NCBI GenBank assembly: GCA_903813345.2
Contig: CAIIXF020000012.1
Coordinates: 26,238,684-26,302,683 of the forward strand
DNA from: Owenia fusiformis
Lineage: Eukaryota > Annelida > Polychaeta > Sabellida > Oweniidae
Direction of reading: 5' to 3'
Length of the DNA stretch: 64,000 nucleotides
Of the stretch, positions 4,854-43,547 are shown piece by piece. The translations under genes were made by a program, and so were the position numbers. Within the stretch, counting starts at the first letter, position 1; the number at the start of each line of letters is the position of its first letter. The notes beneath the pieces are model-generated. The model had not been told where the DNA came from. It saw nothing but the letters and a program-made list of their open reading frames with translations, and did no database searches.

Positions 4854-7800
4854 TCATCTTCCAGTGCAGTGTACTCTTAGCAAGTTATGTATCACAACGT
4901 CCAGTAGTTCAAAAATGGTGAGAACACTAGCACCAACAAACAGACCAAGAGATCCTCCAATGTCACCTGGAAAGTAACATCAAAACATTTAAAAACATAT
5001 TATATTTTGTTTTGGCCTCCCCCTGTTATCAATATTTGACGCAAATAAATTTGTATTATAGCCCGTTTGATGACATAACGATATGCTCTATATTAATATG
5101 GACTTACTCCAAAGAGCTGTAAGATCATACGCCTTTTGTTGTTCTATCTGTTCATAGTTTAGTTCCCTCATGAAGACATCCATTTGTAGAAAGTTCTCTC
5201 TATAAAATGAATCTCTAAGTAGAATAATTCAGTGATTTGAATTTTAACGATACTGGTATCAAATGTAAAGCGCTGATCGAGGAATTTCACATAGCAATGC
5301 AGCGGGCAGATTTGAAAATATGGTCATTCTGGATCGCAAGGCTTTTTTTAAAAAAAATGGATTGTCGTTGCTTATGTTGACATACATATAGGATAATAAC
5401 AACGCTTTCAATTGTTGACTCATTATTTGATTTTTAACAATAACGTCAGTATAAGGTATTGCAACATAAATATGTGAACTCACTTACTTTACAAAAGCAG
5501 TTCCCAGTCTATTTTTATTTTCATAATCTTTCAAAGATGCAAGTAGATCGTCGAATGCATCTCTTAGAGCACTATCCTTATTCCCGGCGACGCTTTCAAC
5601 ATTAAAGCTTTCTATGATGCTTTTATATTTTAGTTGAATCTCTGTCAACTTATCATTTAAGTTAATGTCTACAAAATCAGCATTTAAGAATATGTCCCAA
5701 TTATTGTCTATCAGGCTGGCTCTATCTGTATCATTTTTGGGGATTTTAAGCAATTTTCGAAACACATCTTTCACATAGAAACTTCCATTTTGACGCACTA
5801 TATTTACATCATCTTTTATTTTTTGATAAAATTGAACTAATGCTTTTTCTGACAGCATACTGGACCATATTTTCATGACGTCTACTTTTAATTGAACCCA
5901 TATGTCTTTAATGATACGTTCACGTGATCTCAGATCTAAGAAGAATAAATGAACTGCTTGCATTGCAGCCGATACTTCCTCTTGTAAAGCTGATTTGGCT
6001 AAAAGTGTTTTGTTTATTCCTCGTTCTGTATACTGGTTAGCTAATATTGCGATGTGCTGCAGAGTTAACAATGCTGAAGTGTTTAGTGTCATTGCAGATG
6101 TGGTCAAACTTACCAGCTGTTGATTTAATGACTCAAATTTCTTAAACAGACTTGTGTTTGAGCTACTAAAGTTGTCCATGTTTTTCTGCAGTGCCTTACT
6201 TGTAACTAGTACAGTGTCTTGCTCATACATATATAGTCTGTAATTAATGCTCCTTGCCCCGGAGGCGAATAATTCATGTGTTTCCTGTATGTGGGTCCAG
6301 TTGGCTTCATTTGTCTCCATCACAGTTGACAGAATATCAGTGAAGTTATCCAGACAATCCATATAAATTTCCAATTGTGTCCGGAGTATTGTGTAGATGT
6401 TGAGTTCACCCTCTTCAGAATGTTTGAATATATCTTTCGATATATATTCCCTATCATACCGCCGATCTGGTGAATTTTCATAGACAAACCAAGGGTCTGC
6501 GTTTCCAAAGACATTGTGAATCTTTGTCATATTATCATAACCTCTTTTGGCTAGAACTTGCTTTATAGATATCTCACGTTGTACGATCATTTGGAGAGTC
6601 TCTCTGCAGTTTGTGTTGTTTAGTGGAATCTCCAGCAAATGACTAACTGCGGCAGAAAATGAATCAATAAATGCGTAAAATCCTGTTGTTATATGTGAAA
6701 GAGAGCGTTCGTTCAATACTTCCCAAGCTCTGACGAAATCCCTGTCCATCGTGGTAAGGAGCCTGGTGAGGCCACGATTATAATGAAACCAGATCCGCCT
6801 GGATAGTTCGGAGAGAGAGGCAGACAACTCTGTGGATAACCCATGGACATGTTTAACAACACCGTGCAATACTTCTTTTATTTCATTTGTGGCTTTGTCA
6901 AAATTTTTAATCAGCAATTTGTCATCTTTCACGATATCTTGGTTTACTCTCTGCTGAGTCTCCCTTGCATTTAAGTAATGTTTCTTTATCGAAGCAGTTT
7001 TGGTATGATTTGCACTTAGATAGCTGTCAAGGTCGTGGTTTGATATTGCCGCATAAGTTATGGCAGAATCGAACTGCGTCTGTTTACATGGTATTGGGCA
7101 ATCACTTTCATCTTTCTGCTCACCAACTTTCACTAGAATAGAACAAATTTTAGAATGAATGTTTTTATATATACTAGTCAGCCATGATATGTTTGTGTAT
7201 AATGTAATAAGTAATAGATACGTTTATAAAGGCATAGAAAGTCTAGAAAATCAGATTATTACGTTTAAGGCATTTTATTATTTCAAAGTAACGTTTTTTA
7301 TATTAATGTAAGCACTAAACTATGCATGAGAACGCAAGGTGTAGGTCACTGATTTGCATACTTTTAATGGATGTATTTATTGATATTTTAATATTCTTAA
7401 ATTATTTCATATTTAAATGATAACATTGATATATACTATTTACCATTATTTGTCATGACACAATTGAAATAAGAGTAGACGTCACACAATTCCATTGGGT
7501 CTAGAAATAAATTGATTAAAATTAGTTTTTGTCAAAAGTCTACAATTTTCTGCTGCCAAGACTGACTATGTGGTCAAATGTAAAAACGTTTAGAAGATAT
7601 CGCGGTCACAACATATTTATACTGTGCATGCACATTCAGTGGACCTCTGATTGAACTATTTTTTACTAAGCAGCTATGTCCAAAGCAAACATCTATTCAT
7701 ATATACCTCCCTCTAATTATTTTACTCTCCTACAAATAAAATCTTCCATTTTTTGCTTTCTTATATACACATCAAATCGTTTTCCAAGAGTACATTTCCC

Positions 7801-13800: not shown

Positions 13801-15345
13801 TTCAGAAGCTCCACAGAGCCCCGTAAATAAGCTCCGATCATTGTTTATAACCCTTTTTTATTTAGGCAATTTTATCCCGGGAAAACATGTGTGAAACTGG
13901 TCCTGGATGATTTCCCCTTTGAAATCGATTTTTATTTGAGGGATTACAAAAACCCTTGGTGCATTCCCTAGGAAATTACAAAGCCATATCAATCAAGAAA
14001 AATACATTCTAGTATAGATATATTGATAAGTCTGTCTCAAGTGTACATATTTCTTAAACTGTTTTCTCCTAAGCCGACAATAGTACATCATGGATCGGCA
14101 GTATATAATTGACTCGTTTTTACAGGCTTCCAGTGCCTGTTACATAACTTAACATAAATGCAGAGCAGTTTCAAATCTCTTTTCACTGTCAGGACCTATT
14201 TACTTTCTGAAGATTGAATCCACCATAGTCTTCTGAATTTTATCTTATTTAGCGATGTACTGAGGCATACACTGTTCCTCGGATTATTATCGTTTAGATA
14301 GTGTTATCATGTAAAATGTGTTCAATAACTGCTATTTCCTGTTTTCAACAAGTTACATCTAAATCACTAAATCTCATGATTTTAAAACATGAGCTATATG
14401 GGAAATCTGACGTGGTTTCAAATATGTTACTTGGAATAAAATTCAAAAACCTAAAAACTGAAATAATTGTTTGGCAATCGAGTATTTTTTTCTGAAACTT
14501 TATGTTCGTGACATTTGAGCATCACTTTCCGTTGGATAAACATGATCAAGAGCAGGTGACTTTTTGATGTTCTCCATACTCAGTGCAAATGATCAGAAAG
14601 AGATTAACGAATGCAAAAGATGTTTGCAATCTTGGACCATGCAGCGAAGATAAACAAGCCATATGTCGGAGAAATGAAGTTTGGGAAATTCGTTTTCAAC
14701 GCGAACTAAACCAAATTCCAAATGTACTGTTATTAATTTAGAGGTATATAAGTGATAAAATACTTTGAAGTCAATGCCTGTATATAAATATATACATTCC
14801 TTCCAAACTGTTTATTTCCTTTGACTTTTTACCACACGTAAGAGTTATCAATGTTTTCAATATTTATTGTGGTCATGCTTCAAAACAGTAAATAATACCT
14901 CAAAATGACAAAGTTAGAAATAGTTAAACAGAACCTTTTGACTGACCCAAGTAATTTGTATTGTTTAATTATCAAAGCATATCATTTTATGGATTATTTA
15001 TTTAAATTATTTAACAAAATATATGATACATAAAACATACCTTCTAAGAAAAAACGGAGTATTTTCCCCAATCTGTCTGACTCCATGTACAGTTGTTGTG
15101 CCGCTGAAATCTTTCAACACTTTTTTCCAATGACCATTTCGTTTGTTTTCCGGTGTCCGTTCAAAGTTCAAAGAACCATCCACAACTTTTGGAATTTCCC
15201 TCTTCGTAAAATGAGCACCTTCTCTCCCATTCTGTGTCATGTTGACTGACTCATTATTTGAAACAGGCACGTAGGCAACTCCACGACTGATTGTGTCACG
15301 ATATTTCTCATTTCCGAATCTACATGTATATGTTCCATCAGTCAT
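4854..15345 (-). CDS. DEG/ENaC (ASIC-like) ion channel, paralogue 2, with giant extracellular insert
   Basis: This is a ligand- or stimulus-gated sodium channel subunit of the plasma membrane, by family. Ten coding exons join in frame: 15345-15041, 11655-11488, 10641-10489, 9072-8978, 8372-8161, 8017-7858, 7500-7444, 7132-5488, 5199-5108, 4966-4854, giving 999 residues. Every junction has GT-AG ends and matching phase. Visible parts are: cytoplasmic N-terminus with TTTVHGVRQI (His-Gly at 87-88); TM1 at about 103-123; post-TM1 FPAVTVCNQNAFR (146-158); a cysteine-rich ectodomain with GTCYTFN (exon 4), CGCRDLYVPQ (exon 6) and ELCDVYSYFNC (exon 7); CPIPC (395-399); about 500 inserted residues; ENFLQMDVFMRELNYEQIEQ; then TM2 with SDIGGSLGLFVGASVLTIF, including the G-A-S selectivity filter. 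Ser963 sits where the degenerin residue is expected. The C-terminal tail is short. Nothing looks broken. The gating stimulus is unknown. Confidence 0.93.
5488..7132 (-). CDS. Exon 8 of paralogue 2: knuckle insert domain
   Basis: This single exon of 1645 nt encodes residues 384-932. Its first 30 residues are standard channel (SDCPIPC, then TYAAIS) and its 3' end splices straight into the canonical pre-TM2 strand. The remaining 500 or so residues occupy a gap that spans only about 35-40 residues in ASIC-type channels, where the knuckle helix lies. The insert reads as mostly helical, with long Leu/Ile heptad-like stretches. It has about ten N-X-S/T sequons (for example NHT, NMT, NFT, NWT, NKT, NDT) and only two cysteines (NCRETL and MDCLDN). 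These features indicate an extracellular, glycosylated domain, perhaps with one disulphide. I do not recognise it as any known fold. Confidence 0.88.
8576..8668. repeat. (ATACC)n microsatellite
   Basis: This imperfect pentanucleotide array (CCATA units, the last seven nearly perfect) lies in intron 4 of paralogue 2, about 200 bp from exon 5. It is not present at the matching place in paralogue 3. Confidence 0.85.
9998..10488. repeat. 77-bp minisatellite abutting a splice donor
   Basis: About 6.4 head-to-tail units have an exact 77-bp spacing: TTCAGTG ends at 10003, 10080, 10157, 10234, 10311, 10388, and its variant at 10465. Units 3 and 6 share variants (GTGAATACCATTATTAAG against GTTAATACCATGATTACG in the others), suggesting a 3-unit higher-order period. 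The last partial unit runs directly into exon 3 of the channel gene, and its minus-strand sequence forms the GTATGTGTATG donor. Lies in intron 3; absent from paralogue 3. Confidence 0.92.
11095..11420. repeat. Diverged tandem repeat, about 40-bp unit
   Basis: About eight degenerate copies of a unit like ATCCCTAGAAATGGGTCC followed by a TTTTGAAAAA tract end in the phrase CATCGGCACACCCCTGTA. It sits in intron 2 of paralogue 2, about 70 bp from exon 2. There is no coding potential. Confidence 0.75.
13626..13945. repeat. Two direct copies of a dispersed repeat
   Basis: The stretch at about 13626-13735 (TTTATTTAGGCAATTTCATC, TCGGGAAA) recurs at about 13841-13943 with modest divergence. A third relative lies at about 38185-38290 (TTTTCATCTCGGGAAATCATG). 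All three are in first introns of the channel paralogues. The family is unknown. Confidence 0.6.
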
Positions 15346-17997: not shown

Positions 17998-18100
17998 GTC
18001 TATATGCGGTTAAATATAATGTCAGGTCTAAACGTATTCATAAAGCTGTATTGTTCTGGGTACTCGCGCTCTTTGATAGGCAAAAGTAAGAGTAACAAAA

Positions 18101-18964
18101 CTAACACCCCAGTCACATTTCCTGCGGCCGCCGTGCGGTCTATCATTTCTGCGGCCAGTTGCTTTTCTACGCTCGCCGCAGAATTTCTGCGCTCTTATAC
18201 TTTTGCAGTCACATTTCCCACGGCAGCCGCACGGTGAATTTTAAATTTCTGTTGATAAATAATACTTTTTTTCATTTTATTTACATCAGGACAATTCATA
18301 AATGTTATTCATAGTGCTAGGATGTAATATCAAATGAAAAGTGATCGTGATACATTGACAAATAATGATTCAATCTTGTTTAGCCTGTTGATTTCTACGG
18401 GGACCTCAGAAATGAACAAATATTATAACTCCGAGTTATAATTTCTACGCCTTCCCTGCGGTGTGTTACACCCCAGTCACATTTGTCGCACGGCGGCCGC
18501 AAGTCGACCGCAGATCAATTAAATCGGTGAATTTCTGCGGCGAGCGTAGAAAAACTACGCTCGCCTTGCGGCCTCCGTACGGCGAATGCAGATTTTTACA
18601 GGCCGCATGGAAGGCGTGGAAATTATAACTCGGAGTTATAATATTTGTTCATTTCTGAGGTCCCCGTAGAAATCAACTGGCTCAACAAGATTGAATCATT
18701 ATTTGTCAATGTTTTACGATCACTTTTCATTTGATATTACATCCTAGCACTTTGAATAACATTTATAAATTGTCCGGATGTAAATAAAATGAAAAAAAAC
18801 TATTATTTATCAATAGAAATTTAAAATTCACCGTGCGGCTGCCGTGGGAAATGTGACTGCAAAAGTATGAGAGCGTAGAAATTCTGCGGCGAGCGTAGAA
18901 AAGCTACTGGCCGCAGAAATGATAGACCGCAAGGTCGCCGTAGGAAATGTGACTGGGGTGTTAG
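18101..18964. mobile_element. Large foldback element, arms about 365 bp
   Basis: The ends are CTAACACCCCAGTCACATTT and its exact complement (AAATGTGACTGGGGTGTTAG). Each arm runs about 365 bp (18101-18466 and 18599-18964) and contains GC-rich coding-like phrases such as GCGGCGAGCGTAGAA and an AT-rich block. The 130-bp centre repeats the terminal CACCCCAGTCACATTT motif and has its own small hairpin (GGCGAGCGTAG/CTACGCTCGCC). Arm identity is high, so the element is probably young. No transposase; it must be non-autonomous. The superfamily is not assignable by eye. Confidence 0.88.
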
Positions 18965-20637: not shown

Positions 20638-20768
20638 TAAATTACCAAAACCTTGAGACACTAAATACATAAATTATCAAAACCTTGAGACACTTAAATA
20701 CATAAATTATCAAAACCTTGAGACACTCAAATACATAAATTATCAAAACCTTGAGACACTGAAATTTC
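20638..20768. repeat. Tandem repeat, 32-33-bp unit, four copies
   Basis: Four near-identical units read ATAAATTATCAAAACC, then TTGAGACACT, separated by short variable A-rich joins. The units are contiguous with no unique spacers, so this is an ordinary minisatellite. Confidence 0.9.
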
Positions 20769-21027
20769 ATACGAATAACATTAAATAGTATTAAAATGAA
20801 ACAATCTTGGTGCAAGTTGATTACATTAATTACTGTTATGCATATAAAATATTACATAATGATGTTTTGTATTCCAAGGAGGGGTTGCATGGCAGAGCCA
20901 CTAAGAGGGATGAATCACAAATAAGATCATACTGTAGGCGTCGCCAACCTTTCTTAACAGAAACATTCTTTAAAAGAGCCTAGTCAAATCAGCATAGTTT
21001 ATCAAGTTTATTTTTGCCCCAGTCGAT

Positions 21028-21361: not shown

Positions 21362-21471
21362 TTAGACACCAATGTACGCAATCAGTCATGTGAATATTTA
21401 ATTTTCATAGTTTGCAAGCTTCATTATTGTAGGCCAACATTTTATGAAAACAGGCGTGGGTAGTTGCTTGA

Positions 21472-26594: not shown

Positions 26595-29500
26595 TCATTG
26601 CCCAGTGCAGTGCACTCTTAGCAAGTTATGTATCACAACGTCCAGTAGTTCAAAAATGGTGAGAACACTAGCTCCAACAAACAGACCAAGAGATCCCCCA
26701 ATGTCACCTGGAATGTAACACAAAACATATTTCTCCAATTTTGGAAACTGTAATTTATAATACTTTTTAAGTGCCATGTTATTTTTTCCATAAAAGCTTA
26801 ATATATGTACATGTAATTAACTGAATACCGAAATATATTATCATGATATACAAGCTCGTGCATCTTATTACATTTGATTTAGTAAAATTATCAGACTTAC
26901 TCCAAAGTGCTGTTAGATCATATGCCTTTTGTTGTTCTACCTGTTCGTAATTTAGTTCCCTCATGAAGATATCCATTTGTAGAAAGTTTTCTCTGAAATA
27001 TATATTTTTCAATTTAATTTTCAAAAGTAGTGTGACTCAACATTTCTGAATTACAAGTCTAAAGATATGCATAGCATACAGAAGAAACATGCAGATCGTG
27101 TGATAACGAGGTTGATCTATGAGTTTGAATCGATATAAAATGATACCGGTGATAAAACAGTGAATAACATTCGTGATCTAATGAAAATCACAATTTCAGT
27201 TGGACTACTTTTACATCGTATACAGGGGTCCGTTTCTAAACTGTCCTAACTTATGATTTCATTGTTAATCAAAAAGAAAAGAAGGATCCAATCGTAAGTT
27301 ACGATCGTATCAAAATGGAACCCCAGTATCGGCTTTTATTAAAAAAGTGTACCCATTAAGTATAAAACAACTATAATGTATCTCCTTACTTAACAAAGGA
27401 CGCTCCGATTTCATTATTAGTTTCATAGTCTTTCAGTGATGCGAGTAAATCAGCAAACGCTTTTCTCAAGGCGTCATCTTTATTGCTGATGACTTCCTTA
27501 ACATTAAATCGATCTATAATGCGCTTGTATTGAAGTTGAATTCCTGTCATTTTATCATTTAAGTTGATATCTGGAAAATCAGCATTTAAGAATATGTCCC
27601 AATTATTGTGTATGAGGCTAGTTCTATTTGTATCATTTTTAGGAATTCGTAGCAATCTTCGGAAAATATCTTTTTCGTAAAGACTTCCATTTTGACGCAC
27701 TATATTTACATCGTCTTTTATTTTTTGATAAAATGGAAACAATGCCCTTTCTGATAACATGCCTGACCATATTTTCATGACGTCTACTTTTAATTGTATC
27801 CATATGTCATTTATGATACGCTCACGTGATCTCAGATCTAAGAAAAATAGATTAACTGCTTGCATAGCAGCTGATACTTCCTCTTGTAAAGCTGACTTGG
27901 CTAAAAGTGTTTTGTTTATTCCTCGTTCTGTATATTGGTTAGCCAATATAGCGATGTGTTGCAGAGTCAACAATGCTGAAGTGTTTAGTGTTACTGCAGA
28001 TGTGGTCAAACTTACCAGCTGTTGATTTAACGTCTCAACCCTTTGAAAAAAACTTGTGTTCAAATTTCTAAAACTATCCATGTTATTTTGAATTACTTTA
28101 CTTGTGACTAGTACTGTTTGTTGCTCATACTTATACAATCGGTAATTGATTCTTTTTCCTTTTAAGGCGAACAATTCCTGTGTAGCATGTATATGTGTCC
28201 AATTGGCATCATTTGTCTCCATCACAGCTGACAGAATTTCTGTAAAATTCTTGAGGCAATCCATGTAATCGTTTATGTTTATTCGAATCTCAGAGTATTC
28301 TTTTTGTTCACCAGTTTCAGAGTATTTGAACATATCTTTTGATATATACACTCGATCATATCGTCTATCTGGAGAATTTTCGTAGACAAACCAAGGGTCT
28401 GCGTTTCCAAAGACATTGTGAATCCTTGTCATATTGTCATAGCCTCTCTCAGCAAGGACTTGCTTTATGGTTATCTCACGCTGAACGATCATTTGGAGAG
28501 TCTCTCTGCAATTTGTGTTGTTTAGTGGAATCTCCATCAAATGACTAACTGCGGCAGAAAATGAATCAATAAATGCGTAAAATCCTGTTGTAATATGTGA
28601 AAGAGAGCGTTCGTTCAATACTTCCCAAGCTCTGACGAAATTCCTGTCCATCGTAGAAAGTAATTTCACAAGGCCACGATTGTAGTGAAACCATATTCTC
28701 CTGGACATTTCAAAATACAAATCTGATAATTCCATCGATAACCTATGAATACGCTTGACAACGTCCTGCAATACTTTCTCCATATTAACCATGGCTTTGT
28801 CAAAATTCTCAATCAACAATGTGTCTTGCTTAACAATATCCTCGTCTACTCTCTGCTGGGTTTCTCTTGCATTCAAAAAGTTGTTCTTCACCGAGGCAGT
28901 TTTGTTCAGCGTTGGGCTTAGATAGCTATCAAGGTCGTGGTTTGATATGGCTGCATATGTTATGGCAGTATCGAACTGCATCTGCATACATGGTATTGGA
29001 CAGTCACTTCTACCCTTCAGCGCTTCAACGTTCACTGAAACCAGAACAAAGCATTTGCGAACTGTTTGTTACAAATGATGGAAAGACATCGCACATACAA
29101 TTTACACTCATATCTTTTTGTATTTAAGTATCAAATTTAGGCAAATCCATAGTTTAGAAGATTCGAGTACTTTAACAACCTTATTGGTTCATCATATAAT
29201 TTTGTTGCTCAGTAGGTTTGTTGGTGTTGTTTGCCAAGGTTGCTATTCGCAAACATTTAAACTTTACATAAGGGAATTGTGTAATTATTATGTAGTTCCA
29301 CCTATGAATTTATTTTGATGCATTGGTGATATTGATGTTAACATACTTTAAAACTGGTGCATGCTTGTCTGATACTAGAAAACAAATTATACCATTAGAT
29401 GCCATTACGCAGTTGAAGTAGGTGTAGACGTCGCACAATTCCTTTGGTTCTAAAAAATATCCAAAATAGTAACAATATGTATTTTTGCTTGAAATACTTA

Positions 29501-32500
29501 TGAATTTGTATAAGCAAGGCCAAATGCAATTGAGCAAAACATGTTACAGAGCCCGGCAAGAAAAATAAAAGATCTATGTGTACACCAGAAATAATGGAAA
29601 CAAGCTCCATCTTTCCCAAAAAATGAAAATAAACTTTTTCTCTTCCCCCCCCCCTTCCACCAGTTCTGATGGACTTATCATGTGACATGCCTCGCTTAAG
29701 ATTAATCGACACAAACATTTAATTGGCACACTCAGTGGATTCCTTTAATTGTTATGTACATTGGCTTGTCTATTTTCATTACTTACTAGTATTATGTTGT
29801 GGTACATAGAGATCTCTACATCCACATTTTTCACTGATGTATTTTGCCTTAGTGTCAACATGGCAGGCGGCTATGGAGTAGTTATCGAAGTGTTCAAGTT
29901 GCATAGAGTCATCACATTCCCCATATGGTTTTTCAAGATTTCGAAGCTACAATCAGATTTGAACCAGCTCATATTCAGGCCCCCTAGACTTCCACCAATG
30001 CGAACATCAGTTCTGAGCCCGTGAACTATGTTCGTTGCACTCAAACCACGATTCTGACATCGCAAATGTTAAATCGCGAACCACCATTTCCTCGCTCCCG
30101 AACATATTTCTCCACTCGCGCATTGATATATGTGCTCGTGAACAATCGCGAGCGTGCGACTAAAGATTTCAGGTTCGCGATGTCAGAATCGTGGTTCGAG
30201 TGCAAGGAACGTAGTTCGCAAGGTCAGAACTGTGTTTAGACAACCAGGAAGATTCCATCATGATGAAGTGGTGTATTCTTTATTATACCACTCTAAGTCA
30301 AATTACAGTTGTATAACATGGGTCTATAACAACGATATATAGTGGAGAGTGGTATATCGTCATCGTATACACTCCACCGTATACACTCCAGCGTATACCA
30401 CTGTAGAAGTGCATTCTGGGAACTAATGAATATAGAGCGAAGAACAACGTGTATGTTTTGTTACACAGACTGTTGTGTCCCTCGAATGAGCGGAGCGAAT
30501 GAGGAGTTCCGACGCTCCAAAATTTTCATGATTTCCTAGAATCAAGTGACGTCTTAAATGGGTTCCGGCATGATTTTCTAGAATCAAGTGACGTCATAAA
30601 TGGTTCGAGATCAACATCGGCATTATTGAGTTGGCTATGATGGGATATTTTTATGGTTTTTAATCGTTATGATTGTGTTCGAATCAACTGTAGTTGAACT
30701 TAGAGTGGCATAATAAGATTATATAATGATTCATTCTGTATATCGTGCATTTTATACTCTCGTGAGAATATAATATATTCACTCGTTCGCTACGCTCACT
30801 TGTGAATATATCATATACTCACTCGAGTATAAACACGATATACAGAATGAACCATTATATAACCTCATACTATTTACATTGAATGGATCAATTCAAGGTT
30901 CGATACTTTACAAGATATGGATGGATATAACGTACCTGTACTTTCGTGACACAAACTCACCAATTGTGTAAAAATTAGCCTGTTTACTTCAAATACAGAA
31001 TTACCTGTAACATACGAACGCCGACAAATGCCTGCATCCCTGGAGGTATCGCCTGTCCGAGATCTCCAACTAACGGGATTTCATTGTGGTCATGAATGAG
31101 TATCTTTACACCTGCGCCACTGTTTGGACCTTTCATGTATTCATATTGTTCAACATTTAGCCGAAGTTTAAGTCCATACGCGGAACCAGTCTGAATTGAC
31201 TCTAGAATACGGATACCTATTGGAAACAATATGATTAAGTGCAGTCAAAATATTACTATTTCCGGTTAGGTATGGCAAAACACCGCTAAATCACATCACT
31301 ATACAAGTCAATGGGCAATTTTTATATCGAGTTTTGGCCCCACTGACCTATCTGAGGTACAAAAGCATTGTCTAGGCTACATTTATACGCTAAAAACTCA
31401 AAAGGGGTCAAATATCTTCTTTTTTAAATAATCAGTCAAATGTGACACTATCCCCTATCTCTCTACCACCATACATTGAAATTCACAAAAATGGACTCGA
31501 AATTCTCCTTCAGATATCCCAAATAAACACAGTTTTAGAAGAAAGGGCGTGTTATCGTTGAAAAATATGACATCTGTACAGATCAGCTCACTGACTTGTC
31601 ATGATCACAATTCAGTTTTTAAAACTACTTTTTTATTATTTTGTAGACATTATTGATAGCCCTTAAATCAAATTACATAAAATTATGTACTGGTGTACTT
31701 TATGTTGGATATATGTGGCCTTTGTAGATTAAAGAAATGTTTTGTTTACCGTTTCTACCATGGTTAAATGTATAGCAAGTGCCGTAATCCGTGAAGGTTG
31801 TCGTAATTTCATCAGGATTGCATTCTCTTCCACTCCAATGGCAGCTGAAACATCAACAATTATTTGGAGATTAAGGCCCATAGAAATTAAATGTTTGTTT
31901 GATATTCATCTCAAAACTTTATTTGTCGAATATTTTGCCAAACACGAATACACGGTGACCAAGTGTTAATAGTTGAAATTGTTCTGGAAGTGATTTTTCA
32001 CACGATTTGGACTTGTTTTATAAGAACATGGAATACGACATTCGTTAGAATGGAGCAAAAAGTTAAGAATAGTCTATATTTTACAAACCAACATAACTTG
32101 ACTTCTACCTAAGATGTTCTTCTTCATATCCACGGCTCTAATTTGCGGATCATTCTTTCATACTTTAGTAATCGCAATTATTAATTACCCAAATGCGAGT
32201 AGGTAGTTACCAGTTTAACCACCAGGTGGCTGACTCGGGTCAATTAACATGGCAGGTATATAAGAAAGTTCCCTTAAACTTGAATATTATCAATTTAAGT
32301 GGCTCAATTTTCATATAACCCTTATGTGTCTGATACTTATACTAATATAAATATGTCCAGTAAAGCAAAATATTATCTGTCCACTCAAAGAAAAGATATT
32401 TCATTTTTTGTGATTTTATAGCATGGGGTCTATGGGGAATCTCCCCGAGCTAGAAGTCACATTTTCAAAGAAAATTAATTTTTCAAAGTTGATAAACACT

Positions 32501-35500
32501 TTTTAAAACCACATTTCTAGATGTAATTTTACATGTAGATTTCAAATATGATATTACTTTGACTGAATTTTGAATTTTTAATGACGTAAATCAAGATTAT
32601 TTCTACTCGCATCTGGGTTATTGAGGCCTAATGTTTAAAACTTACACGGATTCTTTTAATTCCGATGTATTTGCATTAGGGTATCTATTTTTGTTTAAAT
32701 GGCGTTTGTTACTGATTTATATTTACATTTCATCGTGTTAAATTGACAGTGAATTTATTTCACAACACAATCCGATTCAATAGCCAAGACAACATTTTAC
32801 CGTTGCGAAGCGACACAACAATATTGTCCGGTTATCGTTTCAGAAATTCCTTTAATTTGCTATCATATTATTTTGATTCATTAATCATTCATACTAAAAG
32901 ACTTTTTAATTTTAATGAACTTTTCTACCTAGGGCAATTAGGCTTATCGATAGTGTGACGTCATCTCAGGTCAATCTGACCACAGGAGAACTAAAAAATC
33001 AATCCACTCATTCAGTTTTTGTACATTTACCATGTCTTGTGAATAGAGCAAAATTGTTGTATTCTAATGGTGAACCAGAATTTGAAATTATTTCATGCTA
33101 TATAATGGACACAAGTTAAATCAACATAAGAAATAATCTTAATTGCTTCATTCAGTTCATGTGTAGCTTCCAAAAACAAAAGTTAAATCATGCATATTCG
33201 CAGATAACATTTAACTTGTATACAAATATAAAATAACACAAAATCGAGCCCCGATATATGTGCCATCTATTGGTGGCATTCATAGTCACTCAAAATCACA
33301 CTCCTTCGAACAAGAAACATTGCTTCTGGTTATTTACAATACTCTCAATAGTAGATTTTATATTTGATTAAGCTGATACTTCTCCTATAGTTGTATTGTT
33401 CTTATTTTAAGGTTATATAACTAAACGTATAACTGTAAAACTATTACTGTAAAAAAATATAGGACAGACTGTTGCTATATATTAGGTAAACTGAGGCACG
33501 CATGGGCTAGATTACAAGGAGGATTGGTCCCAGGGTTCCAACTCGATCTTCTTCCATCTATAGAGATGTCGTGATTACCAAATTCGAATTCAAACAGGCG
33601 ACTTTTTGTTAACTTTAGAATGTTAAATCGCGAGTGTTGGTCTTATTTCCGAACAAAACATTCCAAAATATACAAGCAATGATTGAGATATTAGTTCGAA
33701 TATTTTGCACTGTTGATGAATTTATAGTCAGTTATAATATCACAAAATAACGGCATTCTAACATTTTTATTGTTGGAAAATATCGAATTGCGTCCCTGGG
33801 ACCCAATCTTTCTTGGTTAGATTGTAAACAAATAACCATATTGATTATGGGTAATGTCACTATGTTTACCTCAATACCATGTCCTCTAGCTGATGACCAC
33901 CCGTCTTGAATAGATGGAGTAGTGATAGGTTTCTGAATGATTGGCTAACTTTACCGGACCCATGTTCACTGTACATATCAGTGAGATTTTCGTACAAACC
34001 GATCTCTTCCATCGTTGTTGCCCTTGAAAATAGAAATAAGTATATCGACTTTGAATTCTTAAAGCAGTCTGGGTTAAGTGGCTCTTGATTTTCTCATATC
34101 TTTATAGTGATTCTATAGAAACAATTAATTGTGTTATCTAATTCCATGTTACTTGCAATGTATCACACTCTAATTACTACAGAGAGGATTGCCCAGAATA
34201 GGCCTGCCTTATTGGCTGAGAAAATACATCAAAACCAAGAATAAGAAAGGGTATTCATACGGATGACTGCATACCTAAACGCATTTTGGTTGCACACAGT
34301 TACTGCTGGAAATGTCAGGGTTGTGTTGTAGTTGATCTTCACTGTTACAGACATCGGGTAGGAAAAGTAGTAGAGAAAGCTCGTAACCAGTTGATTTGTA
34401 AACAAGGCAAAACCTGTTACGACCAAGAAGAACCAAATCACTCTGGAAATAGAATTTACACAGTGTAATAGACAGGGTGGCACAGGAGAGAAAAGCTCCT
34501 TATTTGAATATCATACTTTGTATTGTTTCACTCATTATAAAAAATGAATTAAAGTATTCAAAAGGCAAATGCCAGACCAACACTATTCTGAAAAAAGATC
34601 GTAGAGTATGAAACAACCTGTATGATAATAATAGTCGGACACATGTGTAGATACTTTCAGTATCTGCAAGAAACTAGAAACAACGATAACCAGATCAATC
34701 AGACTCCGGTAGAAGAGGGGCGTGAATCCAGCAACGTACTATTTCAAAAATGCTGTCAATACGGATATTCTAAACTGAAACAAATGTAACAGTGATATGT
34801 TTGATTTTGAGATTATTATGGATAGATTGCTCCTAAATAATGAGTTCTACTTTTAATCAATTATAAGTGTATATATTTTTCTCGGGGAGGTATAATTGAT
34901 TGATTTAAATGATGCATTGTCTCCAAGGTCGGAATGATGCCTACAATCCAAGATATCACTGTTTGCAATTGTTTGTTCGGAGTTCTTTCACACATACACT
35001 GGTGATCCACTCGATTACGCTGGTTACCAAAACGAACCGTTTTGGTAACAAAATGTCGGAACGTCGAAGGCACGATTTTTCTTTTTTCCTTATTTCACGC
35101 GTTGTAGGCAGAATCCCCACGACGTTTTTTCTCACAACGTGCATCAGTATCATATGTTTTAGAAAGTGTACATGTTTGCTAAAAAATATCTCAGAGGACA
35201 ACAGAATCGTCGATTTACTTCCTCACTTAAGTTACATAAACGGTTTTTCGAAAAACAGTTAAGATCTGCACTTTTAACCCAAACCGTTTATGTAACTTAA
35301 ATGAGGAAGTAAATCGACGATTCTGTTGTCTTCTGAAGTATTTGTTGGCAAATATGTACAATTTCTTAAACATATGGTACTGATACACGTTTATGTTAAA
35401 CAATGTCGTGGGAATTCTGCCTACAACGTGTAAAATAAGAAAACGAGAAAAATCGTACCTTCCGGATGTTCCGACATTTTGTTACCAAAACGGTTCGTTT

Positions 35501-38500
35501 TGGTAACCAGCGTAATCGAGTGGATCACCAGTGACATATGTTATTTTCAAACGTCCATTATCTCTACACGTTTACTTTTAAGACCATGTGTTGAAAGATG
35601 GTTTCCCAAGCGTACTACGATGCGCAATAGTAGCACAACCACAGGTAACATTACGATATCCATGGTTGCATCTGGTATCTTCAAAACAGTAAGCCTGGCC
35701 TGTGTGTATTGTATTAATCTAGATGTCACCCCGACCCTTCTCGAGGAACTCTTATTATCCAATTAAGAATATAAGAAATGGTGTGAATTTGCACAAGGTA
35801 TTCAGTAAAATGATTGAATTTCATGCTGACACGACATATGTTTGCTAGAAATATTTAAAACATCTAATCAAACATTGAACGAATGGTGTATAAAAAGATA
35901 CGTTTTAACCAGTCAAGGACATATAATGTTAATGGCCTTTGCTTAACAAATTAATTTAATTGAACCTTATTTAGGAATATTGCATCTTAAGAGAATGGAT
36001 TGATTTAACTATCAAAAATGTTTAGAATATGACCTTTTGAAAAACATTAAGATAAGCTCGTGTTTCTTTTAGAACAAAGCCAGACTTGATTGAGTAATAG
36101 AAGTCTAATTTACTTTATCATAATAAAATCTCCCAAATCAGACATACGAAGAGATGCGATATATATGAAAACATTTTCAATATTCATGCAGTATATGCAT
36201 CACCAGGCTTCGTTGTTCCGATATTCTGAAGCAGAGGCGTCCCCAGGAATTCCCCAAAGGAATCTGCTAAAATACACTGCCATTCTATCAATCTACCAAA
36301 ACTGACGTTAAAGTGGATTGAATACCATGCACTTGGTTCTATATTGAATAGACTTGCAAATACCAGATATTTCATTTTGACTATTGTTCCATTTGAAAAC
36401 CGTGTCTGAATAGTATTGCCAAGGTATGTCGAAGATTATACCTTACGGTAATCACTGTTCCACAGCTGGATGAGCAAGAAGTTTAACCCTTTCCCGACGT
36501 GAATATAAGAGGAAAATGTTGTCCCCAGTGACGGATAAGTAAGAGTGTTTTTTAGGGGAAAACTGCAAAATACCTATGCCCTGGGACCTATACCTTGGAT
36601 TTCATCACTGATATACAATTTTTAGTAAGGGTTATCACATAAGAACAACTTGTCAAAATTTGGTGTAAAAATACTAAATAGAACTGGAGATATTGTCATT
36701 TCATTGATGTATATAAATAAAAAATAATGGTGCCAAAAGGAGCCTATCGTCCTGAAAGGTATTACATAATAGGGCTCCATATGGAGCCTATCGTCGTGAA
36801 AGGGTTAAAGAAAACATCTTCACTCAGAATGACTCTAACTGAAGTTGATGATACACTCTACTAACTCAAACATGATATTCACCATTGATGACACTAACTT
36901 AAATTGTAATGCATGTATTCGTTCCATAAAGTTAGTGTCATCCACCGTTTCAGATAGTGTCATTCCAACGTCATCATCAAATTCATTTAGAGTCATTCTA
37001 AGTGAGGTCTTTTTCTTTAAATGTCTCCAATATCGCGGATGTTTGAATGTTTTCTTATGGCTGTTTACAATCATGGCTTCATTAGTTTGCATGGCGAGAT
37101 AAATCAGAAGTTTATCGAAAATGAAATAATTTTGGCCACCATCTTGAATGATACGACAGTATAACAGAGTTATCCAGTTGTGGATAGTAATGTGAGAATT
37201 TAAAAAGATTTATGCCTGATTGACAAACGAGGTAGTGAATGATACGATATCGGTAATTCTGGTTCGCCTTTTTTGGTTTAATTAGCCTAAGATGACGTTT
37301 AGCAGAGATTCTATGGGCAAATGAACCATGTACTTGTACTCCCTTGCGAATTTGATTGATGAGAAAAAAGATAAGTCCACTTGTTCTTTCTAGCATCATT
37401 TGCATCTAGTCCCGTGAGATTTATTATTTAACAGTTAAATGACTTGCGATTTATCAGAGTAATCCGTCGAGATGTTTATTTGAATCTACTGACATTTAGA
37501 CCGTGTTTACCTCAAGTTCAATGTCAATAGTCCTACAAATAATAAGTAATAGACATGTTCATGGACTTATATTTTTCCTTAATACCGAATTTTTTAGTAA
37601 TACAAAAAAAGATTAATGAATTCAAAAATTGGAATATAAACCAAAATTTGATTACCATAGTGTATCATCAAAACTAAAAGAGACTTATGATTAATTGCTT
37701 TGTTCCGCGGCACCAAGCAGAACGATCTTTGCTTGAACGAATCTACTTGTTTAACTCAAGAACTAGTGACAAATAATGAGAACGATTTTTGTATAAGAAT
37801 CGAATGTACCCGAAAAACAAATGATCACCAAATAATGCTTCTTACTAAACTGACTTAAAATGTATTTGTAAACCCGTCCTCGTAATAAAGTTATTTATTT
37901 TAATCAATAGCAATATGGTTAAAAGTAATTATCGAATTCCACATTCTAGTATAACGTTTAAGTAAATTGATGAAAAATGGAAATGAAAACAAAAATTAAT
38001 ACAATACAATTGAATGGTGAATGGTGATCAAAGACTTGAATATTGAAAGTAATAGCCTATAATACGGATACAGTTGAGAATCAGACTAAGTATGCAATTC
38101 CCTAGTGGGTCACATATAACAAAATATAATTATACTAAATACATAGCTACTTCCAAATAATATCCGGTAAGACTTAATACCGGAATTTTATATCAAAATA
38201 TTCCTATTTATTTTCATCTCGGGAAATCATGTGTCAAATTTATTATAAATAATTTGCCCTTCATGATTGGTATAAATCTACAAGTGGTACCAAATTAGCT
38301 TTTTGTTGTATTTCTGAAGTCAAAAGTCCTCCAGACATCCAAAAATAATTATTTAACTTCGTTAGACTTTGTTCTTCAAAAGTGATAACAAATTCAAGTT
38401 AATCATTCGTGCCTGTTGAGTAGATGTGATTTATTGGATTGGATCACTGCTAACTGTCAATCCTAATGGTTTACAGTACAGAGGTTGTATGGTCGCAATG

Positions 38501-41500
38501 AGATCGGGTTGGTACTGATAGTGTTCATCGTCGTAGGCCACGATTTGTCCATCTTAAGTCATACTTTTTCTACAGATGGCAAAATAAGGGGACACCTCCT
38601 TTTCAATGAATTATGCAAGAGTTATTGGCAATCTGCAAAGTGCAAACATTGTTTTTGTCTCCTCCAAAAACCAAAAGAATACATACAAATTGGAAACTGG
38701 GGCTAATTTCCTACAAGATCGCACTGAGCTAAAGATGGCGCTATAACATAGACATGCACTGTACGAGTCGATAAATTCCCGGGTATTGTAACGCCATTAG
38801 ACTCAGGTTGAAAATTCAGTGTCATTTCTGAGATGAAATATTATAATTGCATCGTAAAAAGATTGTCCGCGAAATGACACGAGTATTTATTAGTCGCAAG
38901 GTTCCGTTAATTTGAACTGTGATTCAAGGAATATGTCAAATGATTTCTATATAAGGTTATCTATATAAGGTTATCGATAACCAAATAATTATAGGATATC
39001 CTATGATTTTGAGGAATATCATTTTTATCTACGAGGTGACATTGATATCTTCACGAGAGAGCGAAGCGAACGAGTGCACATATCAATATCACCGAGTTAC
39101 GATATCCTCCGGATATTTATTTTGCCAATAAATATCAAATTTATTTTTTCATGTTATCATACATTTAGTACACTAAGTGGAGGATAATACACTTTATTCA
39201 AACAATGCAGTCGTTATTTTGATGCAATTTAAGATACAAAATTCCATAAAGTCCAAAATGGCCGATAATACCTGTACGTCATTTTATTCCAAAAATCATT
39301 GTTGAAGAAATCCTGTGTTAAATATGAGAGAAAAATATGCTGAGTCAATTCGTATTATCAATTTCATATTACTTAGTATGTGTAAATATTTATTCTTGTT
39401 GATTTCATCCCAATTTATTCTCAAATCAAATTTTCTTATAATTGTTTCCTCAAATCTATACTGACCTCCAAAAGTTATCTTTCTCTCGTTGTATATATTG
39501 CCTACACACCATGGTAAGTGCTAACTCGGTGTTACTTGTAACCTTTTACATGTATGCCATAACTTTAGTGCTCAAATATTCAAGTTTATGCTATGTCAAT
39601 ATCGAAGTGCAATATTATATCATATTCTAGTAATCAAAATGCAGTAGATTATTTACTGAATTGATTTTCATGAGAATCTTTTCCTCAGGAACATATTGAA
39701 CCCTACTTTAATACATAAGCTCAAAAAGTCTGAATTTTACTGTGCAAATTTAATGATAATGTGATAAGTTAAATAAAATGTAGTAACTCCGATGGACATG
39801 ATTGTATGAATTATTCATTGAAAATAATTGCGCGATAACTTTTTGTAACGATACGTTGAATCTCTTACTTATATTTGATATTTGACTTTTTAATGTACTT
39901 TTTCCCATGAAGAGTGAACCTCATAAATTCGTTTTTTGCCCATCACTTCATCTCAAGAATTCTCAGTATTCCAAGTATTTTCATAATTACACTAGTTCAA
40001 GTATGTGACGTCAGAGACAACAGCAACAGGGTACCCGTAGCGTTCAATCTGAGACCATACTATGTTAATAGACACCCCATAGGGTCGGAAACAGTATGTT
40101 TTTACAGTTGATATAATGAGAATTATACACCAGCTTCCAGCCCTGTATATGCGAATATCAATTTGAACGATCAACGTTTTCTCGCATAATGTTTGATTTT
40201 TACGATATCCAAAGACAGGGACTTATATTGCAAACCTAACCTCAGCTTCAACTCCGATCATTTGATTGGCAAAAGCCCCCCCCCCCCCATTTCCTTTTTA
40301 CCTCTGATTCTGCAGCCTCAGAGTTCAGAAATAAAATGTCTAAACTGTACAATCAGGTTCTCTATTACACGATTGTATTGGTTAATTCGTTAGAAATAAA
40401 AGAAAGGTTTATAGTTAGGTGATAGCCATTTAAGAGACTCTAGACCTGTAGGAGGTAATATTTGGATCGAACTAAAGAATTCATTGCTTATTTATATGAA
40501 ATAAAATGATATTCTCTAAAAATTCGGGCCATAGTTCACATTGACAAATTCGACATAAATGTCGGAGGTCTGAGGTTCGTCCTACAAGATTTTACATTTC
40601 AGTCAAAATTGTTTGGAGAAATCTCTACTCAAAACTCAACTTTACTGTATCGTTCGATATTTTGAAATGGATTTTTGCGCCTTTATTGAATGAATTATTT
40701 TATTTTATACGGTTAATTAACACGATGACACGTAAAAGTTTCACGTATATAATTGATAAGAAACATGAATAGATCATTTAATTTTATTTCTTCTAGACCA
40801 CATAAATAAAAAATGGCCCGTGCCTAAATGTATTGTAAGGGTTTTCAGGAATTCGAAGGGGAAAATAAAAACGCACGTTTTATACCGATGACTGATTTCA
40901 CTAAGAAATAATACGTTGGCACTAATTCATCCCTTCAGGTTCATGTAATATTCATAAAACACGTGACTATACGATTGTTCAGTTGAAATCTAAGTGCACG
41001 ATAATTAGAGAAAATTGAATTATTTAGAAAAGTATGTAATGGGATGCTCTTAGAGTTCATTGAGACATTGAACACAGAATGTCAATACCACCTTCCATTA
41101 GCCAAGATAAATAGACTTATGTACAATAAATATGAGACACGAATCATTTATTGAATATAGACGTTGATTCTCAAGTATTAAATAGTCATTCAATTAAAAT
41201 AAATTAAAATAAAACGTACGATTTAAAGATGTGTCACTGTTTAATCATCAGGGATTTTATATTTTTTGTTTTATACATGCATTGTCTATTTATTATGGTA
41301 CATATTATGGTTGACATTATTATTTTTCTTCTTTTTATGCTCTTTAGTTTTTAACAAATTAAATGAGCAATACTAAACAAACAAACAAACAAACAAACAA
41401 ATGAATGAATAAATAAATTATTCGAAATAAATGAATAATAAATAGTAAATAAACACAAAAACGAATAAATAAATAATAATAATAAGTAAATAAATGAATA

Positions 41501-43547
41501 TAAATAAATAATAGATGAATAAACAAATCAACAAACAAACAAACAAACAAACAACTAAATAATAAATAATTAGATAGGCCTACTCAATAAGATCTCGATT
41601 TTGATTTCCAGAAATCTTTTGTTTGTACTCTAATAACCCTCCATTGCTAATGGAAAAATCACATCATAATTGCGCCGGACTGCTTAGAGATTTATGAGCC
41701 TACTCGATCGTGTTTTAAGGAAATCTGATTTTTCTCAATTAGATGATTAACAAAGACTGCCAGGTGGGTTGCTGCTTTTGAATAAGATGTGATTAGTCAG
41801 GTAAAAGTCACCATGATCTCTAATTTATATACAGGTTGGCAATCAAATATGTTTTTCCCCCTCAACTTTAACATCCACAAAATGTTGCATAACTTTTTTT
41901 GTCTACAGTATGATATCTGAATTGTTCTTTTTCACATTAAAACTAGGCTTCATGGAACAACTCTACAAGAAGTTTCAAATGACTAGCTCAACTTTGTGCA
42001 CTTGCACGCACAAAAGGTCATACTTGAAATCAAGGGAGAACATTTTTATTTGTTTTTGCAATACAACTCATTTAAAAACAGAATTTGGTGTATTTGGTGA
42101 TGATCACATCACCAGTCAGTAATACAGGTCATGTCGACCCAGACGAATTGATTTATAGCAAAGAAATATATTAAACAATGATTGGCTTATGTTTTCCATT
42201 TACTTGTTGACTTATCCATGAAAATAAATGTTTAAATTATAATAAATAAGATGTACTAATGTTTGATGAACACATATTGTCATTTAAGCTTTATATTTAG
42301 ATTACTATATCCAGATATTTCTTAGAAGCCTTTGTTAAAATATGTTCAAAAAAGGGAATGGAAAAACGATCATTTCTATTGTATGACATTCGCCTCTTTC
42401 GATAACATTGATTTGGGTCATAATAGGCTTCCAATGAGCATCGTGCAAGAGGACGATTAACATTACCATGACGTGTTCGAGATAATTGTGTGAAAATGTT
42501 GAAATATCTTGTAAAAACTACACGCTCTTCCCCATTGAAAAATAATTTTATCATGGAGATTTTATTGAACCTGAAGAAGCCTGTCTTTAGCTTTGTTACA
42601 TAAAATTAGCATATTAATTGTCTATTTAACTTGTTTTTTTTGAGAACTCGAAAGGATGCATGGATATTGTGTCATATGACAAACCCCCATTTGTTTACAT
42701 CAATAATTCATCATTTTTAACATCAATTTCCGACCCATTGTAATTGTTGAAAAAATTAGAAAAAATTGAGGTATTTTCAAGACGTCAATTTATATTTCCA
42801 GTCTTATTTTTTTCTTTAAAGATTGTGTAAATCGGGATTCAAACATAGAAAGGCTTGAACAAGTAATCCAGCGGGGGAATAAAGGTTGCCAAATTTTTGG
42901 AGGGGAGTGTAGTGTTCTGAGTACGATGGTTTGCAATATACACCGCATCGTCTCATACATCACAACTATGTTACAACCAATTAGATTGCGACAGGGGCAT
43001 TTCTTAAAACGAATAGACTACCTGCCTCGATTGACACAACTTCAGCTAGGATCATTCTTGCCCATTTTATGTAGTAATTTAGTTAATTTTAGAATTTTGA
43101 AATTGCTTCAATAATTTGCATTTCGTGCTTTAAATTGTTTCATTTATGCTATTTTCATTCAAACTTTTTAATCAGCAAAATCTATGACTTTTCGTGATTT
43201 CAGTAGCAATACCTTCTAAAGAAAAACGGCGTACTCTCTCCTATCTGCCGGACTCCGTGCACCGTTGTTGAGCCGCTGAAATCTCGCCATACTCGTCCCC
43301 AGTGCCCACTTCGGTCTTTCTTTGGCGGTGTTTGTTCGAAATCAAATAATTCCCCTGTCCGTAAATCCGTGTTTGAACGACCAGTCGCAACTCTCGGAAC
43401 TTCTCTCTCAGTATATGTAGCCATGTTTCTTTCATTGTGTCCCATCCCGACTAGCTCATTATTCTGTGAAACAGGCGTGTAGGCTGAGCCATGATCGATG
43501 TTATCACGACCCGGATTCTGACGAAATTTATGTAGTCGCTCAGCCAT
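26595..43547 (-). CDS. DEG/ENaC (ASIC-like) ion channel, paralogue 3, with giant extracellular insert
   Basis: Plasma-membrane cation channel subunit, the closest relative of paralogue 2. Ten coding exons: 43547-43213, 34442-34275, 34022-33870, 31844-31750, 31216-31005, 29946-29787, 29449-29393, 29034-27390, 26992-26901, 26707-26595, giving 1009 residues. Exons 2-10 have exactly the lengths of paralogue 2, and only exon 1 is longer (by 30 nt). Motifs: DFSGSTTVHGVRQIGES, TM1 beginning VIWFFLVVTGFALF, FPAVTVCNQNAFR, GTCYTFN, CGCRDLYVPQ, ELCDVYTYFNC, SDCPIPC, the roughly 500-residue insert, ENFLQMDIFMRELNYEQVEQ, then TM2 with SDIGGSLGLFVGAS and the C-terminal RVHCTGQ. The gene is larger only because its introns have gained repeats. 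It has no stops or shifts. A mariner-type element sits about 100 bp upstream of the ATG. Confidence 0.93.
27390..29034 (-). CDS. Exon 8 of paralogue 3: knuckle insert domain
   Basis: This 1645-nt exon is exactly as long as its counterpart in paralogue 2, with the same phases, and encodes the CPIPC region plus the large insert. Conservation between the copies is patchy. The segment from about RIWFHYNRGL through NERSLSHITTGFYAF to NTNCRETLQMIVQRE is almost unchanged even at silent sites. The stretch after YISKDMFKYSE differs at roughly half its positions. The two insert cysteines (NCRETL, MDCLKN) and most N-glycosylation sequons (NKT, NNT, NMT, NFT, NWT, NTS, NDT) are kept, while NRT is new. 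Equal length despite substitution argues for a folded, functional domain. Confidence 0.88.
30000..30237. mobile_element. Foldback MITE in intron 5 of paralogue 3
   Basis: Arms of about 62 bp: GCGAACATCAGTTCTGAG through CCACGATTCTGACATCGC at the left, and GCGATGTCAGAATCGTGG through GGTCAGAACTG at the right. The loop is about 115 bp and includes TCGCGA-rich sequence. The matching intron in paralogue 2 is only 143 bp and lacks it. Confidence 0.8.
30281..30715. mobile_element. Second inverted-repeat element in intron 5 of paralogue 3
   Basis: Terminal inverted repeats of about 31 bp: TATTATACCACTCTAAGT, then CAGTTG, mirrored at the right end. Inside are clustered GTATACACTCCA repeats, a loop-type motif GAGCGGAGCGAATGAG, and a direct duplication of CTAGAATCAAGTGACGTC at about 30536 and 30580. 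No coding capacity. Confidence 0.7.
30717..30862. repeat. Foldback hairpin with CGCTACGCTC loop
   Basis: TATAATGATTCATTCTGTAT, then ATCGTGC pairs with the complement ending at 30862. The centre is CTCGTTCGCTACGCTCAC. It abuts the previous element, so three inverted-repeat units lie head to tail in one intron. Confidence 0.8.
32183..32622. mobile_element. Probable MITE in intron 3 of paralogue 3
   Basis: Terminal inverted repeats of about 20 bp: AATTACCCAAATGCGAGTAG at the left and the complement of AATAACCCAGATGCGAGTAG at the right (2-3 mismatches). The 400-bp interior is AT-rich and non-coding. Only the termini support this call. Confidence 0.6.
34997..35533. mobile_element. 537-bp foldback element with 5-bp target duplication
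   Basis: The element begins CACTGGTGATCCACTCG and ends with its exact complement. It is a nearly full-length palindrome with arms of about 260 bp, meeting near 35265. It is flanked on both sides by ACATA (34992-34996 and 35534-35538), which I read as a 5-bp target-site duplication. It lies in intron 1 of paralogue 3 and has no coding capacity. Some arm regions have diverged, so it is not brand new. Confidence 0.85.
35578..35699 (-). other. Short cysteine-rich ORF, possible terminal exon
   Basis: After a possible acceptor (ATACACACAG) the minus strand reads QAYCFEDTRCNHGYRNVTC, GCATIAHRSTLGKPSF, ending NTWS and a TAA. Four cysteines in a C-x5-C-x8-C-x-C pattern look like a secreted fragment. 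No partner exon was found. It could be chance or a relic inside intron 1 of paralogue 3. Confidence 0.2.
36483..36808. mobile_element. piggyBac-type MITE (TTAA target)
   Basis: The element is flanked by TTAA at 36483-36486 and 36805-36808. Its inverted ends are CCCTTTCCCGACG and CGTCGTGAAAGGG. TTAA duplication plus CCCTTT termini is typical of piggyBac derivatives. The interior holds a direct pair of GGAGCCTATCGTC near the right end. No transposase. It lies in intron 1 of paralogue 3. Confidence 0.8.
36805..37020. mobile_element. TTAA-ended foldback sharing its TTAA with the piggyBac MITE
   Basis: It starts TTAAAGAAAACATCTTCACT and ends with the complement of TTAAAGAAAAAGACCTCACT. Arms of about 45 bp include AGAATGACTCTAA. 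Inner repeats ATGACACTAACTT/AAGTTAGTGTCAT extend the fold. Its left TTAA is the right TTAA of the neighbouring MITE. The long open frames here on both strands are consequences of the symmetry. Confidence 0.7.
38725..38800 (-). repeat. Dispersed repeat copy 2 (GGCGTTACAATACCCGGG)
   Basis: Reverse-orientation copy of the block at 16628-16706, sharing GGCGTTACAATACCCGGGAA, then TTTATCG and a TATAGCGCC segment. It is in intron 1 of paralogue 3. Confidence 0.6.
39011..39110. repeat. Foldback hairpin with GAGCGAAGCGAACGAG loop
   Basis: GAGGAATATC and CGAGGTGACATTGATAT on the left pair with ATATCAATATCACCG and GATATCCTC on the right, closing on AGAGCGAAGCGAACGAG. The loop motif resembles that of the hairpin at 30717-30862, although the arms differ. 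Confidence 0.75.
41371..41562. repeat. (AAAC)n/(AAAT)n compound microsatellite
   Basis: Runs of ACAA and ATAA/ATGA tetranucleotides extend for about 190 bp, with AAAC blocks at both ends and AAAT blocks in the middle. It generates a spurious minus-strand open frame rich in Leu, Phe and Tyr. Confidence 0.9.

Follow-up and report, generated by a model that had tools for sequence, protein, structure and literature searches.

The window, by which we mean the whole 64,000-nucleotide stretch of Owenia fusiformis DNA analysed here (GCA_903813345.2, contig CAIIXF020000012.1, positions 26,238,684 to 26,302,683 of the forward strand), carries on its minus strand a tandem array of genes coding for DEG/ENaC channel subunits, namely two complete genes, termed P1 and P2, and the first exon of a third, P0. 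The genes, the exons that matter here and the long inserts borne by their products lie as follows:

4854..15345, minus strand: P1 gene, complete, ten exons coding for 999 aa in a single open frame with GT-AG borders
15041..15345, minus strand: P1 exon 1, the N-terminal intracellular part (exon model)
5488..7132, minus strand: P1 exon 8, 1645 nt, carrying CPIPC and the entire insert (exon model)
5508..6995, minus strand: P1 insert proper, residues 430-925, with approximate borders transferred from P2 by alignment
5108..5199, minus strand: P1 exon 9, the pre-TM2 strand with ENFLQMD and ELNY (exon model)
4854..4966, minus strand: P1 exon 10, TM2, GAS filter and stop (exon model)
26595..43547, minus strand: P2 gene, complete, ten exons coding for 1009 aa in a single open frame with GT-AG borders
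43213..43547, minus strand: P2 exon 1 (exon model)
27390..29034, minus strand: P2 exon 8, 1645 nt, carrying CPIPC and the entire insert (exon model)
27410..28897, minus strand: P2 insert proper, residues 440-935, from HMMER alignment with ASIC chains, borders +/- a few residues
26901..26992, minus strand: P2 exon 9, the pre-TM2 strand (exon model)
26595..26707, minus strand: P2 exon 10, TM2, GAS filter and stop (exon model)
763..1052, minus strand: P0 exon 1, with a guessed start codon; nine further exons lie beyond the window on the same contig

In the base-by-base minus-strand models all 18 introns of P1 and P2 were set on GT-AG borders, exons 2-10 are of equal length in the two genes, exon for exon, and the intron phases are the same in P0, P1 and P2. 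Completed from its own genome, P0 is a third complete tandem gene of 994 aa, counted from the guessed start codon. The original prediction had spoken of two complete paralogues with an insert; the rebuilt models uphold both of these, but the number of copies has to be raised to three. A search of the genome (498 Mb, 525 contigs) with P2 exon 8 as the query, in which four candidates were scored at E <= 0.001, returned three matches, namely P2, P1 and P0. As an observation apart, dS between P1 and P2 is uneven across exons 2-10: exons 4 and 10 have values of 0.18-0.19, exon 6 one of 2.3 and exon 7 one of 1.4, perhaps as a result of gene conversion among the tandem copies, though the exons concerned are short.

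DEG/ENaC subunits are characterized by two transmembrane segments (TM1 and TM2), a His-Gly motif before TM1 and a GAS-type filter in TM2. P2 matches the PF00858 profile in two stretches (E 1.4e-87; 295 bits against a cut-off of 23.6), and over the ectodomain preceding the insert P1 and P0 are 87% and 82% identical to it, respectively. P0, P1 and P2 each have ELNY, the GAS filter and, ahead of TM1, the His-Gly as part of TTVHG, so the earlier statement that the flanking channel motifs and the filter are intact extends to all three copies; TM1 and TM2 constitute the two highest hydrophobic peaks in P1 and P2. Against solved structures P2 obtains 227 bits with ASIC2 (E 5.1e-66), 209-219 bits with ASIC1 and 215 bits with ASIC5, and lower scores with FaNaC (125 and 99 bits), ENaC gamma (111 bits) and alpha-ENaC (86 bits), while the best of 52 paralogues from its own genome reaches 119 bits, below the ASIC scores. 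Ranked by score alone, P0-P2 would thus be ASIC-like DEG/ENaC subunits. ASICs are collinear with P2 over TM1, the ectodomain, the pre-TM2 strand and the GAS filter, whereas P0-P2 are set apart by about 497 extra knuckle residues, a Met and a Gln at the proton positions and the absence of two cysteines. The ASIC ectodomain has 14 cysteines of known pairing; each of our three copies has 12 cysteines between the transmembrane segments outside the insert, aligned to 12 of the ASIC cysteines, and the two missing ones presumably form the C313-C360 pair of ASICs. The position of the wrist His (H73 in mouse ASIC1) is occupied by Met in P0, P1 and P2, and, from the alignment and the sequences, a palm Lys position, which we take to be that of the known proton-linked Lys, by Gln. 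The wrist His and palm Lys are tied to the proton activation of ASICs (PMC10507113); their replacement in three of three copies therefore makes another stimulus likely. A survey places ASICs in several spiralians and in neither of two sampled molluscs (PMC9949801).

The motif CPIPC starts at residue 395 in P1 and 405 in P2, and ENFLQMD at residue 933 and 943, respectively; in P0, P1 and P2 alike 533 residues separate the CPxPC cysteine from ENFLQM, and the loop, measured from the final CPxPC cysteine up to the ENF Asn, is 534 residues long in each. This count, contained within one exon, agrees with the roughly 530 residues in a single frame of the original prediction. In HMMER alignments with PDB chains, P2 residue 439 pairs with residue 395 of the chicken ASIC1 chain and P2 938 with residue 396, and with the ASIC2 chain P2 439 pairs with residue 396 and P2 936 with residue 395. 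Because these paired residues adjoin, about 497 residues have been added between neighbouring ASIC residues at the knuckle, where the insert had indeed been predicted to lie. A query stripped of the insert aligns with ASIC2 straight through the junction (E 7.9e-19) with a single five-residue gap, and the equivalent loop of ASIC2, counted by hand from the chain, has 36 residues, in keeping with the 35-40 originally given for ASICs. We place the insert directly after the knuckle helix, and the ASIC alignments show the strand leading to TM2 directly following it. In FaNaC1 helix alpha6 is assigned to the knuckle (PMC11026163). The insert exceeds in size the entire ASIC ectodomain, given as about 300 residues (PMC9949801).

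Exon 8 stays open through 547 codons, an event with a chance probability of about 6e-18 at the local base composition, and in all three pairs of P0, P1 and P2 the insert aligns over 506 codons without a single gap. Its dN/dS values for the three pairs of copies, 0.167, 0.238 and 0.189, are slightly above those of the ectodomain preceding it (0.115-0.159), the part after the insert having values of 0.06-0.08; between P1 and P2, 17 of 17 windows of 60 codons across exon 8 have a dN/dS of at most 0.28. Only two of nine introns align between these two genes, over 78 and 103 bp. Together, these comparisons show that the insert codes for protein and is under purifying selection. Skipping of exon 8 breaks the frame, as it joins a phase-1 intron to a phase-2 intron, and since this exon also carries the CPxPC strand a normal channel would be impossible without it. 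P1 and P2 were scanned for in-frame GTRA..YAG pairs spanning more than 1350 nt whose donor falls between 80 and 260 nt from the start of exon 8, and no pair of this pattern turned up. The splicing-out of the insert, which had been named as what would refute the original prediction, hence appears unlikely from the gene structure.

Neither the exon-8 frames nor the whole of P2 yielded a Pfam family in the insert above the cut-off; the best matches below it were to Phasin_2 (15.5 and 13.9 bits against a cut-off of 24.9 for the exon frames, 11.0 bits for the whole of P2) and, in whole P2, to Laminin_II (8 bits against 33). A profile search of PDB with exon 8 matched nothing but the flank that resembles ASICs, at E values of 0.87 and 1.3, and gave no match for the insert itself. 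Within the insert, the 19-mer of highest hydrophobicity attains 1.26 in P1 and 1.38 in P2, as against 1.89-2.06 for TM1 and TM2, leaving the insert of both copies devoid of a strong hydrophobic segment; nor does it contain an RGD motif or an RxKR/RxRR site in P1 or P2. It bears 10 N-glycosylation sequons in P0 and 11 each in P1 and P2, eight of them common to all three copies; this number exceeds the shuffle mean of 5.7 for P1 and 5.6 for P2 and was reached in 2.1% and 1.6%, respectively, of 2000 shuffles, a modest excess. One of these sequons stands at the very start of the insert in P2, where ASICs have NKS, and two residues earlier in P1; it is missing in P0. On the strength of the sequons, together with the lack of a strong hydrophobic segment in P1 and P2, the insert is probably extracellular. 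One of its cysteines is common to all three copies, and a second is sited differently in P0 than in P1 and P2, P0 having lost one cysteine and gained another. AlphaFold2 models of the exon-8 product, built from two and three sequences, are nearly all helix, at mean pLDDT values of 37.1 and 38.5 and a pTM of 0.25 that are too low for a fold to be called. Models of this confidence do not establish the large helical crown of the original prediction: at a pLDDT of 37-38 they lean towards helix at most, and the crown is guesswork. Of 23 windows examined for a hydrophobic periodicity of about 3.5-3.6, computed without a shuffle control, a single one (around residues 458-499) shows it strongly and a few show it moderately, which suggests that the insert is not one continuous coiled coil. 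We also considered an internal duplication within the P2 insert and rejected it, as the best self-alignment scores 39, within the 34-50 of 12 shuffles.

We then compared the array with the remainder of the genome, in which, over 498 Mb searched with P2 exon 8, the insert was found only in P0, P1 and P2. This genome carries a large intronless DEG/ENaC expansion, with at least 95 matches to PF00858 (a few counted twice; loci L006-L057 included), a lower bound as 92 of 212 candidates were scored; most of these are intronless single frames of about 520-830 aa spread across many contigs, and P0-P2 along with other intron-bearing genes are missed in the list because introns split them. From these matches 52 paralogues were sampled, 34 of which had been kept by an earlier motif filter, and the knuckle loops of the 51 that could be measured range from 57 to 124 aa with a median of 67, the remaining one, L036, having failed to align at the cysteine. 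The longest of the 51 loops, of 124 residues, belongs to the intronless L037 (C3:23018901-23022900), and its relatives L049, L051 and L054 have loops of 88-90 residues, pointing to growth of the knuckle elsewhere in the family too. In L036 (C9:3962801-3966800) the Pfam match is interrupted, with some 590 nt separating profile position 337 from position 353, and the longest ATG-started frame, of 500 aa, ends early; the locus may carry an insert of its own, may be split by an intron or may be a broken gene.

The best genome match to the channel part after P0-P2 themselves is an ASIC-like gene on contig C8 (12400201-12404700, L063), with 40.8% identity over 120 residues of this part. It has an intron directly before the pre-TM2 strand, agreeing in position and phase (phase 2) with that of P0-P2, and in both cases a Lys codon is split after AA, the C8 donor (GTCAGT) being placed by homology only. 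The C8 gene differs from the array in its loop, of 37 residues by hand count, and in retaining both of the cysteines that P0-P2 lack; over 4.5 kb of this locus, a part of the gene with the intron included, nothing resembling the insert was found (best tblastn E 1.1). Weaker intron-bearing candidates lie at C12:7283727, C9:19921555, C1:44928799 and C1:44940209, among others. With the insert in just three genes, short loops in 51 paralogues and the intron shared with the C8 gene, we have what looks like a clade-specific insertion adjoining a conserved intron. In the simplest history exon 8 would have acquired the insert, immediately 5' to the conserved phase-2 intron, before two tandem duplications; it may have arisen either by a shift of the donor into the intron or by an insertion inside the exon, and its source could be either intron sequence or imported sequence. 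A transposon origin was considered and set aside, the insert having no Pfam domain and only three copies with the P2 exon as the query. Prokaryote contigs gave seven pattern matches, none of them confirmed, and viral contigs gave none, as is to be expected of an animal gene. Searches of the open-access literature brought up no description of a DEG/ENaC protein with a long knuckle insert, though databases may already contain such proteins under no name of their own.

In light of the above we propose, tentatively and at a little under even chances, that the insert is an extracellular accessory input domain of the P0-P2 subunits that feeds the gate, a function which we infer from its setting. According to this proposal, some 500 residues would have been gained within the knuckle, in exon 8, in the common ancestor of the three tandem subunits; every subunit would bear the accessory domain at the top of the trimer, on its outer side, where it would bind matrix or a neighbouring molecule, and the pull or binding energy would pass via the short post-insert strand to TM2. 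Among the possible roles we rank a mechanical tether above a ligand-binding module, and the latter above assembly or trafficking. That the DEG/ENaC ectodomain accepts added modules is known from nematodes, namely from the degenerins and the EGF-bearing EGAS, where both the site and the type of the module differ from those of the knuckle insert. We assume that the start of the insert corresponds to N511 of alpha-ENaC. In a study of ENaC, N312 in the palm and N511 in the knuckle of alpha-ENaC are important for the shear response, and delta-ENaC furnished with an added knuckle N-glycan displays a shear response that hyaluronidase abolishes (PMC7958617). The location of the insert in the knuckle, the site of the shear-relevant alpha-ENaC glycan, is our lead for a tether mechanism: in both cases an extracellular knuckle site is concerned, which in P0-P2 is probably glycosylated and in alpha-ENaC bears a glycan and contributes to shear sensing, but the alpha-ENaC loop is short, with one glycan, and alpha-ENaC scores 86 bits against P2. 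Taken further, P0-P2 would be channel-adhesion hybrids in which each subunit brings its own protein tether of about 500 residues and a pull by matrix or a neighbouring cell would open the pore directly, with no separate linker proteins, an idea that we deem unlikely. A point against the mechanical tether is the knuckle helix of FaNaC1, described as relatively static during gating (PMC11026163). Against the input-domain proposal as a whole count the low pLDDT of the models, the lack of an RGD motif in P1 and P2 and the patchy periodicity, as do the single insert cysteine common to the three copies and the lack of the starting sequon in P0.

Alternatively, the insert might serve assembly, the choice among P0, P1 and P2 in heteromers, trafficking or shielding, without feeding the gate, which we regard as improbable though the best-surviving alternative. 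Three tandem paralogues of the same layout make heterotrimers conceivable, the dN/dS of the insert is slightly above that of the preceding ectodomain, and glycosylation at N393, the very site that starts the P2 insert, promotes surface localisation of ASIC1a (PMC13357609); however, other DEG/ENaC proteins assemble with short loops, as in 51 of the 52 sampled paralogues, and the insert directly precedes the strand leading to TM2. Less probable still is a receptor module that binds a ligand in solution, for instance a peptide, in which force would play no role and which overlaps the ligand half of the preferred input-domain reading. Mollusc and annelid DEG/ENaCs gated by peptides are on record (PMC10507113), and FaNaC1, which shares the DEG/ENaC fold, has the knuckle helix alpha6 as a part of its FMRFamide pocket (PMC11026163); such a module would furthermore suit channels whose canonical proton residues are replaced. 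Nevertheless, the Pfam and PDB searches did not match the insert to any known domain that binds ligands, and the pocket of FaNaC1 is formed chiefly by the finger, a part that has not grown in P0-P2. FaNaC1 has a GIS rather than GAS motif in TM2, and its divergent part is the finger. We give yet less credence to the insert as a passenger tolerated at a permissive loop, with little function beyond folding: knuckle loops of this genome do vary in length, with as many as 124 aa, and no domain is recognised, yet an unconstrained loop would differ in length among the copies, and the insert keeps eight common sequons and zero gaps in 506 codons in three copies at a dN/dS of 0.17-0.24. Finally, the removal of most of exon 8 by splicing, leaving the protein without the insert, is highly improbable, being opposed by the codon-level constraint across the exon, the frame break on skipping, the failure of the bounded scan of P1 and P2 to turn up an in-frame GTRA..YAG pair that would serve and the location of the CPxPC strand in the same exon.

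As DEG/ENaC subunits are compact, a conserved insert in the knuckle, joined to the strand that leads to the pore helix, would be nature's own test of the way in which a force or ligand outside the cell acts on the gate; being encoded as one exon-borne block it is removable, so that the lost stimulus would be directly readable. The array would also illustrate a route of domain gain, in which an exon expands next to an intron that is conserved and the gene is then duplicated in tandem.

Several further features were seen in the window, in which no tRNA and no Rfam match was detected over the 64 kb. Between P1 and P2, at 22809-23108 on the minus strand, an open frame contains a Methyltransf_25 domain (E 2.4e-7, above the cut-off) and is a methyltransferase gene or its remnant within the channel array. 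The single open frame of 554 aa at 48383-50047 on the minus strand, for which Pfam gave nothing at E <= 1, is probably an exon of another gene. At 9996-10495, inside P1 intron 3 and towards its 5' end, a 77-bp unit is repeated 6.5 times with 92% matches, the end of the repeat overlapping the last seven bases of P1 exon 3 (10489-10641). Lastly, open frames at about 17998-19007 and 23449-24313, on opposite strands, are close matches of one another, as inverted repeats would be, and are possibly mobile elements.
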